Shown in pieces: positions 25,536 through 32,351 of a stretch of DNA of 40,844 nucleotides (position 1 is its first letter; each line of letters opens with the position of its first letter). Source of the stretch: Actinomycetota bacterium (lineage in GTDB: Bacteria > Actinomycetota > Actinomycetes > Propionibacteriales > Propionibacteriaceae); NCBI GenBank assembly GCA_020161755.1, contig JAIUOS010000031.1:1-40844 (forward strand), written 5' to 3'. The position numbers were made by a program, and so were the translations under genes. The notes under the pieces are model-generated. The model was not told the origin of the DNA. It searched no databases and saw nothing but the letters and a program-made list of their open reading frames with translations.

Positions 25536-25599
25536 CCTCCCCGAGTTGTCAGAACCACAGGTCGCTATAGCGGCTCCAGGTTCTGACAACTCGGGGAGG
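25536..25599. terminator. Perfect 21-bp inverted repeat between binding-protein and permease genes
   Basis: Left arm 25536-25556 and right arm 25579-25599 pair without mismatch. The 22-nt loop carries its own small dyad around GCTATAGC. It starts 8 nt after the stop of the lipoprotein gene. In sugar operons such stem-loops often reduce read-through or protect the upstream message, so that binding protein exceeds permease. No U-tract follows. Confidence 0.75.
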
Positions 25600-27533: not shown

Positions 27534-29288
27534 GTGGACCTGGAACTGCGACGGGCGGTCAACGCCACCCTCATGCCCGGCTTCGCCGGATCGGAACTGC
27601 CCGCCTGGCTGGCGACCGAGCTCGAGGACGGGCTCGGCTCGGTCTGCCTGTTCAGCACCAACATCGTCGACGGCGAGCAGCTGCGGACGCTCACCACCGC
27701 CCTGCACGCGGCCAACCCCGACGTGCTGGTCGCCACCGACGAGGAGGGCGGGGACGTCACCCGACTGCACCACCGCACCGGATCGCCGTACCCGTCGATG
27801 GCCTACCTGGGGAGCCTGGACGACGTCCGCGTGACCGAGAGAGTGGGCCATGGCATCGGCCGCGAGCTGCGTGCGGCCGGGATCGACCTGAACCTGGCGC
27901 CGGACGCGGACGTCAACTCCAACCCGCGTAACCCGGTGATCGGGGTGCGCAGTTTCGGCGCCGACCAGGAACTGGTGGCGCGCCACGTCGCGGCCTGCAC
28001 CCGCGGCATCCAGTCGGCCGGGACGGCCGCCTGCGCCAAGCACTTCCCCGGGCACGGCGACACCGCCACCGACTCCCACCTCGCCCTGCCCACCATCACG
28101 GCCAGCGCTGCGGAACTCGCGGCCCGGGAGCTGGTGCCGTTCGGCGCCGCCGTGGACGCCGGCACGCTAGCGGTGATGACGTCGCACATCCTGGTGCCGT
28201 CGATCGACCCGGAACTGCCGGCGACGCTGTCGGGACGCGTGCTGCGGGTGCTGCGGGAGGACCTCGGGTTCACCGGCGCCATCGTGAGCGACGCCCTCGA
28301 CATGGCCGGGGCCAGCCGCGGCCGCGGCATCCCGGAGGCCGCCGTGCTCGCGCTGGCCGCGGGCGTGGACCTGCTCTGCATCGGCACCGACAACACCGCC
28401 GACCAGTTGGCCGAGATCCGGGAGCACATCCTCGCCGCCGTGCAGGACGGCCGCCTGCCGGCCGACCGGGTGTTCGACGCCGCGTCCCGGGTGGCGGCGC
28501 TGGTCGCCGGCGTCCGCGAGCTCCGAGCGTCCGGCGGCCCCGGTGCGTGGGACGTTCCCTGCGAGGCCGCGGACGTTCCCGTCCCGCCCACCGCGTCCCG
28601 TCGGCGCACCTGCTCCCCTGCCCCCGAGACCCCGGGGACGGTTCTCAAATCCGCCGAAATCTGGCGGGAATCGGGGACGGTTCCTCGATCCGCCGAAATC
28701 TGGCGCGAAACGGGGACGGTTCCTCGATCCGCCGAATTCTGGCGCGAATCGGGGACGGATCCTGATGACGGTGCCGAGTCCGGCACCGCGTACCCCGACG
28801 ACGTCCGCACCCCGTCATCGCCGCAGACACCGGGCGGCTGCTCGTTCGCCCCGCTCTCCCCCGCCGGCTTCTGGCTCCGCGGGCCGATCGCCCCGCTGAC
28901 CGCCCCGGTCTTCCTGCGGCTGCGCACCGCCACCAACATCGCCGCGGGCGAGGGGACGCCGTGGGGCGTCGGCGAACACCTGCGCAACGAGCTCAACCGG
29001 CAGCTGCCCGGCGCCGTCGTGGTCACTGCGTTCGACCTGGAGGGAGTGGCGGCCGTGCTGGCTGCGAACCGTGACCGTCCGCTGGTCGTGCAGGGCCGCG
29101 ATCTGGCACGGGTGGAGTTCCTGGTGGCCGCGACCGCTATGGTGCACCAGCGGCGTCCCGACGCCCTGCTGGTCGACCTCGGCTGGCCGGAGCTGCCGGG
29201 CGACCCGCCGATCGACATCGCCACCTTCGGAAGCGGCCGGGGTGCGGCGTCCGGTCTGATCGCACTGCTTGCAGAGGGGACGAGATGA
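27534..29288 (+). CDS. GH3 beta-N-acetylhexosaminidase (NagZ-like) with an inserted 13-residue repeat
   Basis: 584 residues, no signal peptide, so cytoplasmic. Catalytic motifs of NagZ-type GH3 enzymes: ATDEEGGDVTRL, KHFPGHGDTATDSHLALPTI (K169, H170, H173, D175; the His-Asp acid/base dyad) and nucleophile D253 in IVSDALDMAGA. The barrel ends near residue 330. Residues ~345-430 are a low-complexity linker holding three and a third copies of GTVPRSAEIWRES, encoded by the 39-bp genomic repeat. A second alpha/beta domain (~430-584) follows. It should hydrolyse an imported beta-N-acetylhexosaminide. It starts 3 nt after the permease gene and overlaps the kinase gene by 4 nt. Confidence 0.9.
   Translation: MDLELRRAVNATLMPGFAGSELPAWLATELEDGLGSVCLFSTNIVDGEQLRTLTTALHAANPDVLVATDEEGGDVTRLHHRTGSPYPSMAYLGSLDDVRVTERVGHGIGRELRAAGIDLNLAPDADVNSNPRNPVIGVRSFGADQELVARHVAACTRGIQSAGTAACAKHFPGHGDTATDSHLALPTITASAAELAARELVPFGAAVDAGTLAVMTSHILVPSIDPELPATLSGRVLRVLREDLGFTGAIVSDALDMAGASRGRGIPEAAVLALAAGVDLLCIGTDNTADQLAEIREHILAAVQDGRLPADRVFDAASRVAALVAGVRELRASGGPGAWDVPCEAADVPVPPTASRRRTCSPAPETPGTVLKSAEIWRESGTVPRSAEIWRETGTVPRSAEFWRESGTDPDDGAESGTAYPDDVRTPSSPQTPGGCSFAPLSPAGFWLRGPIAPLTAPVFLRLRTATNIAAGEGTPWGVGEHLRNELNRQLPGAVVVTAFDLEGVAAVLAANRDRPLVVQGRDLARVEFLVAATAMVHQRRPDALLVDLGWPELPGDPPIDIATFGSGRGAASGLIALLAEGTR
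28634..28763 (+). repeat. 39-bp repeat, three full copies plus a partial, in frame within the GH3 gene
   Basis: Full units at 28634-28672, 28673-28711 and 28712-28750, each GGGGACGGTTC...CCGCCGAAATCTGGCG...GAA, then a 13-nt partial copy. Because 39 is a multiple of 3 the frame stays open. The same unit forms the inverted cluster at 32143-32349. Confidence 0.95.
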
Positions 29289-32140: not shown

Positions 32141-32351
32141 CCGGGGACGGTTCTTCCATCCGCCGAAATCTGGCGGGAATCAGGGACGGTTCCTGAATCC
32201 GCCGAAATCTGGCGCGAAACGGGGACGGTTCTTCGACCCGCCGACGTCGGTCGGACGAGGATACGTCCCCCCTTACCCGCCGAAATCTGGCGGATCGAAG
32301 AACCGTCCCCGATACCCGCCGAAATCTGGCGGATCGAAGAACCGTCCCCGG
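32141..32351. repeat. Inverted cluster of the 39-bp repeat between convergent genes
   Basis: Forward units 32143-32181, 32182-32220 and a partial from 32221; inverted units 32275-32310 and 32314-32349, also with 39-nt spacing. The outer ends (CCGGGGACGGTTCTT and its complement at 32337-32351) could pair as a long cruciform. It touches both stop codons (PCMT-like 32140, glyS 32353), so it fills the whole gap and may act as terminator for both. Confidence 0.9.

Follow-up and report, generated by a model that had tools for sequence, protein, structure and literature searches.

The window analysed here (40,844 nucleotides of contig JAIUOS010000031.1, from an actinobacterium of the family Propionibacteriaceae) carries on its + strand, at 27534..29288, a GH3 gene that encodes a NagZ-like beta-N-acetylhexosaminidase of 584 amino acids. 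This assignment draws on Pfam, a PDB match and an AlphaFold model: PF00933 spans residues 32-322 (1.8e-69), the best PDB match is the GH3 beta-N-acetylglucosaminidase 6k5j (1.7e-65), and a second alpha/beta domain starts at about residue 445 of the model. The catalytic domain resembles those of NagZ-like beta-N-acetylglucosaminidases and scores 196 bits against the NCBIfam model, below its cut-off of 207. The neighbouring genes resemble components of sugar ABC transporters (all scores are below cut-off), and a ROK-family gene lies downstream. Upstream, between a substrate-binding-protein-like gene and a permease-like gene, there is a 64-bp inverted repeat (25536-25599) with 32-nt arms that are 84% complementary and have no spacer.

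Within the GH3 gene, three full units of 39 bp and a partial fourth form a tandem array at 28634-28763 (unit period 39 bp, TRF score 211), as the initial annotation of this DNA had described. Unit 1 (28634..28672) has the head GGGGACGGTTC followed by a hairpin of the form CCGCC..GGCGG, and it encodes GTVLKSAEIWRES. Unit 2 (28673..28711) encodes GTVPRSAEIWRET, unit 3 (28712..28750) encodes GTVPRSAEFWRES, and the partial unit 4 (28751..28763), which has one mismatch in its head, encodes GTDP; all are on the + strand. The open reading frame (ORF) at 27534-29288 stays open through the array and reads the units as 13-residue repeats with the predicted pattern GTVxxSAExWREx, so the claim that the frame is kept is borne out. 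On either side of the array, the linker insert is non-repeat. Its left part (28524..28633, +), which has weak host codon usage, was delimited by a genome self-search and a retrained codon model, and its right part (28764..28862, +) by the self-search and an alignment of linkers.

The repeat family in the window and the genome

The same family also occurs between genes, 3.4 kb from the GH3 array, where an inverted cluster had been reported and was found at about 32143-32350. The cluster consists of an array of three heads on the + strand (32143..32231), 5 bp past the coding segment of an upstream PCMT-family methyltransferase, and an array of two heads on the - strand (32300..32349), 9 bp from the end of a converging coding segment. 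With up to 3 mismatches, CCGCCGAAATCTGGCG matches the window 8 times (1.12 expected), and none of 100 shuffles reached 8. By itself, the 11-base head was not in excess in the window when as many as 2 mismatches were allowed (39 matches versus 31.0 expected; 7 shuffles reached this number).

Across the genome (G000; 4.08 Mb in 61 contigs), there are 182 copies (91 + 91) of the exact 12-mer head CGGGGACGGTTC and no copies of the reversed-pattern control. This control and the shuffles of the window rule out a chance origin of the repeat. We also considered that the unit might be specially designed to leave all six frames open, which proved a weak idea: 3.5-8.8% of shuffles are equally open, and one of the six frames is closed in 2 of the 5 units tested.

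We defined a run as at least 2 heads, each with at most 1 mismatch and no more than 60 bp apart; single heads are excluded from the run counts, and the stretches examined in G000 cover all 182 head copies. Under our first codon model, by which 91% of the window is coding, 71 of the 72 runs in G000 lie between genes, which leaves the GH3 run as the sole intragenic one. The expectation that the unit would be found at many intergenic sites was therefore correct. The runs are arranged head to tail and mostly begin a few bases past stop codons: in 58 of the 71 intergenic runs, the head faces the 3' end of a gene on the same strand (the other 13 are placed otherwise), and 50 of these 58 are within 40 bp of the gene end (median 13 bp). 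We compared 104 units that have an exact head and a further head after them: CCGCC and GGCG hardly vary, and the loop and spacer are variable. A further repeat family in G000 has a spacing of 34 bp and a different tail (like CCCAACTCGGTCC), and its runs reach 8 heads (L206, L211, and L215). The tail of this second family resembles that of a relative (G024), and among the heads listed, it flanks neither of the Y1 genes of G000.

The placement of these runs raises the possibility that the units in the GH3 gene are putative RNA hairpins that tune mRNA stability in the operon, or polar effects on the ROK-family gene that follows, in the way proposed for REPs at gene ends. Consistent with this, units do fold into hairpins, at -12.3 to -13.1 kcal/mol for three of them (raw values without a shuffle control). 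However, the GH3 array sits inside an open frame, where translating ribosomes are expected to melt hairpins. We consider such a role in the GH3 gene to be rather unlikely.

A Y1 transposase and its flanking repeats

G000 carries two Y1_Tnp genes. One of them (C10:42497-42829; PF01797, 1.0e-13) has 3 GGGGAC heads upstream, on the + strand, and 5 downstream, on the - strand; 2 and 4 of these, respectively, are the full GGGGACGGTTC. The second Y1 transposase (L051, at C10:95424-95750) has a GGGGACAGTCCCC-type repeat upstream. In the genus as a whole, the HUH histidines and Y118 are invariant in all 21 Y1 genes. Inverted GGGGAC heads are found on both sides of 17 of these 21 genes and on one side only of the other 4. 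As a control, we took 2,000 random gene-length stretches from the same-genus GH3 loci, and 62 of them had inverted heads on both sides within 300 bp. The initial annotation had called the repeat mobile-looking, and this impression is strengthened by the finding that the unit flanks a Y1 gene here and that, in relatives, such genes are flanked by GGGGAC-headed repeats.

Y1_Tnp is present in 14 of the 30 genomes from the genus (21 genes), and 14 of the 30 have at least one tandem-head place. With thresholds that were picked post hoc, and with statistics that ignore kinship, at least two tandem-head places occur in 11 of the 14 genomes with Y1_Tnp and in none of the 16 without it (Fisher p = 6.7e-6), and at least one such place occurs in 11 of 14 versus 3 of 16 (p = 0.0027). 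Three genomes (G017, G021, and G027) have Y1_Tnp and no tandem GGGGACGGTTC place.

The head is common to the repeats of the genus, and the commonest tail varies by genome. At 8 of the 10 loci tested (of 21), the tails beside the transposase are closer to the dispersed copies of their own genome than to those of other genomes, when the transposase-bearing loci L217, L300, L331, and L351 are excluded from the tail sets. One of these wins was narrow (0.82 versus 0.80 at L250), and at L262 and L253 the tails were slightly closer to those of another genome.

This is the arrangement of the TIRYTs or TIRtrons, in which a Y1 HUH transposase lies between inverted repeats (Di Nocera et al. 2013, PMC3733652); Quentin et al. 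assign most TIRYTs to their subclass 2.1 (2018, PMC6006769). The motif GGGGWSAS is described for some or most TIRs, not all (PMC3733652). The main family here, GGGGACGG, fits 7 of its 8 positions, and GGGGACAG, at L051, L255, L256, and L261, fits all 8. The transposase is about 260 amino acids long and continues well past the Y1_Tnp domain (residues 13-123), with no Pfam match in the extension, where a subclass 2.1 protein would have its C-terminal helix-turn-helix. Against the NCBIfam model for REP-associated tyrosine transposases (NF047646), it scores 66.6 bits, under the cut-off of 80, and a PDB search with it returned nothing at E <= 1. Because the NF047646 score is below the cut-off and Pfam finds no C-terminal HTH, we judge from sequence that membership of the transposase and its repeat in the TIRYT type is likely, not proven.

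The linker array and its origin

Between anchor residues 324 and 517, the linker of the window protein is 193 amino acids long. Between the same anchors there are 94-117 amino acids in 10 same-genus orthologues and 77 and 82 in two same-order ones. We aligned 79 of 80 related-locus sequences and 12 further loci: the other 91 sequences have a median linker of 100 amino acids and a maximum of 181, and the range over all 92 is 66-193. None of the 10 same-genus orthologues aligned carries the insert, which agrees with the initial annotation. The opposite picture, a linker that is conserved among orthologues and a unit that is absent elsewhere in the genome, is excluded by the orthologue and genome comparisons. 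The nearest GH3 orthologue is 78% identical, too distant to serve as a strain-level empty site, so the insertion point and the insertion event are not seen.

The claim that the linker was lengthened by 13-residue repeats is correct in part. About 43 amino acids are repeat, but the total gain is 76-99 amino acids relative to the same-genus orthologues, and the rest is non-repeat. In a search of the genome with 28533-28860, the non-repeat parts of the linker had no strong second copy: all 71 matches overlap the array, most are confined to 28628-28761, and a few weaker ones (73-78% identity) extend from 28591 or to 28783. As every match overlaps the array, we rejected the idea that the non-repeat linker is captured neighbouring DNA.

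The gene sequence on both sides has a clear codon preference; in the left stretch of the insert and in the array, this preference is weak. When intragenic runs were scored by the ORFs on both their sides, most of the 13 rows obtained were doubtful antisense frames and the GH3 array was not among them, so we used a retrained six-frame codon model instead. The retrained model labels 28524-28766 as non-coding and therefore counts 0 of 73 runs in G000 as lying in genes; despite this label, the GH3 ORF is open through the insert. In the AlphaFold model (28 sequences, mean pLDDT 80), pLDDT falls below 50 at residues 337-444 only, and the insert is predicted to be disordered.

If the linker were adaptive, then selection would have acted on how the 13-residue repeats are spaced or charged, for example to reach a substrate or to bind a partner. 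The frame is kept through the array, copy number could shift in 13-residue steps, and some distant homologues also have long linkers (181 amino acids in L135 and 175 in L143; lengths alone were compared). However, the same unit is spread between genes, the retrained model takes the insert for non-coding DNA, the insert is predicted to be disordered, and the 10 same-genus orthologues aligned do without it. We think that selection for this linker is improbable. It is very improbable that the array reflects a misassembly, or a decaying gene whose parts were joined at repeats: the genome is in draft form (61 contigs, completeness 95.9%, contamination 3.66%) and repeats invite misjoins, but the array is flanked by two halves of one conserved gene, in a single frame and with host codon usage on each side, and the ROK-family gene comes next. 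That relatives lost a long linker which their ancestor already had is scarcely credible, as linker length does vary in the family but the 10 same-genus and 2 same-order orthologues are all short (77-117 amino acids) and the GH3 units are closest to this genome's own repeat type.

The copies across the genome, the intergenic runs, the short linkers of the orthologues, the low pLDDT, and the flanked Y1 gene therefore make it most likely that the 39-bp unit is the terminal repeat of a RAYT-like HUH (Y1) transposase of the TIRYT type, and that the array was moved or copied into the GH3 gene, grew there, and is tolerated as a disordered linker. The RAYT-like enzyme would have copied or moved the unit into the coding sequence of the linker, probably by single-strand transposition, and the array would have grown locally by slippage or recombination. 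Three properties may explain why the site tolerated the array: it lies in a flexible linker between domains, a unit of 39 bp (3 x 13) leaves the frame intact however many copies there are, and the frame used contains no stop. The effect would be a disordered tether that is 76-99 amino acids longer than in relatives, presumably with little effect on the catalytic domain. The points against this explanation are that the insertion itself is not seen, that about half of the extra linker is non-repeat, that the tails at L262 and L253 fit another genome slightly better, that G017, G021, and G027 have Y1_Tnp and no tandem place, that the transposase is below the cut-off of NF047646, and that some distant homologues have long linkers too.

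In-frame arrays in relatives and known systems

We examined 141 runs in seven relatives: 41 in G028, 32 in G015, 22 in G024, 20 in G008, 16 in G007, 8 in G022, and 2 in G014. These are the stretches around the tandem-head places listed, with G008 covered in part and with G001, G002, G004, G005, G009, and G025 outside the set. By the retrained model, 6 of the 141 runs, at 4 loci, are inside coding sequence with no in-frame stop (2 each in G028, G008, and G022). By the first codon model, 7 of the 141 are inside coding sequence, and these are partly different runs (3 in G028, 2 in G015, and 2 in G008).

One array is at the sirC-cbiC junction of G028 (L278:1184-4000), where one ORF extends over two cobalamin-pathway genes. 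In G014, G017, G026, and G022, the first gene, sirC, terminates at a stop codon and cbiC then lies in a different frame. In G028, a single open frame crosses both genes, and there is still an ATG before cbiC. Arrays also occupy one and the same loop in a phosphotransferase-aminotransferase protein of G022 (L371:482-3565) and in its G008 orthologue (L357:467-3715). This loop has a single head in G007 and G025 and none in G028 and G014; the same stretch, with no array, contains one CCGTCCCC 8-mer in G018 and in G003 and two GGGGACGG 8-mers in the distant G026. With L357 and L371 excluded from the tail sets, the tails in the loop are closest to the other repeats of their own genome in G008 and G007, and not clearly so in G022. 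Finally, G028 has an in-frame array in a P-loop ORF with no Pfam match (L286:1857-2744), and the orthologue from G021 is shorter at the array site.

We tentatively suggest that the TIRYT-type repeats of this genus could repeatedly have given rise to gene fusions and protein linkers. Arrays lie in frame in the loops or linkers of several proteins, some of them with the tail of their own genome, and the sirC-cbiC array of G028 removes the stop and the frame break of four relatives to give one ORF. The surprise is this recurrence, with in-frame arrays at four loci in relatives, one of which yields a single ORF over two cobalamin-pathway genes. The conversion of non-coding mobile DNA into protein sequence can be put to the test here, since the genome that carries the array also encodes a candidate mobilising enzyme. 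The genus also offers natural replicates, which share the head and differ in tails and unit lengths and involve several target genes, and the entry of repeats into genes, the keeping of the frame, and the joining of neighbours are open to direct study in it.

In the literature that we searched, there was no description of TIRYT-type repeats as in-frame arrays, of their recurrence in one genus, or of an ORF joined via such an array, and a search on RAYT and REP sequences in Actinobacteria found nothing. The principle of intragenic, in-frame palindromic repeats is known: REPs inside genes and Rickettsia elements inserted in frame have both been published (PMC3733652; PMC10969869).

The system described here is like the TIRYTs or TIRtrons in that a Y1 HUH gene is flanked by inverted GGGG-motif repeats that are also dispersed as singles, dimers, and groups (PMC3733652; PMC6006769). 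It differs from them in its tandem runs of 2-8 heads, its constant head and genome-specific tail, and its copies inside genes. The intragenic cases given in PMC3733652 are instead GTAG and CGTC REPs, which are found inside ORFs alone or clustered, and whose clusters encode 43-82 amino acids in Thauera and R. conorii. Like the family here, these REPs are small and palindromic, with some intragenic copies and the others mostly intergenic near the 3' ends of genes (PMC3733652). In contrast, the arrays here run head to tail and lack the GTAG tag, which is absent from either strand of the 104-unit consensus. The letters CGTC appear solely within the reversed head, at a distance from the CCGCC/GGCGG stem, and not as the tag of a CGTC REP; furthermore, the CGTC REPs have no linked transposase, whereas the repeat here has one. 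The Rickettsia palindromic elements, of about 150 bp, lie in frame in unrelated protein genes (MITE review, PMC10969869), and they share with our arrays the insertion of palindromic repeats, in frame, into unrelated protein genes. Here, however, the inserted repeat is a 39-bp tandem unit beside a RAYT-like gene rather than an element of about 150 bp, a distinction that is drawn by size and not by sequence.
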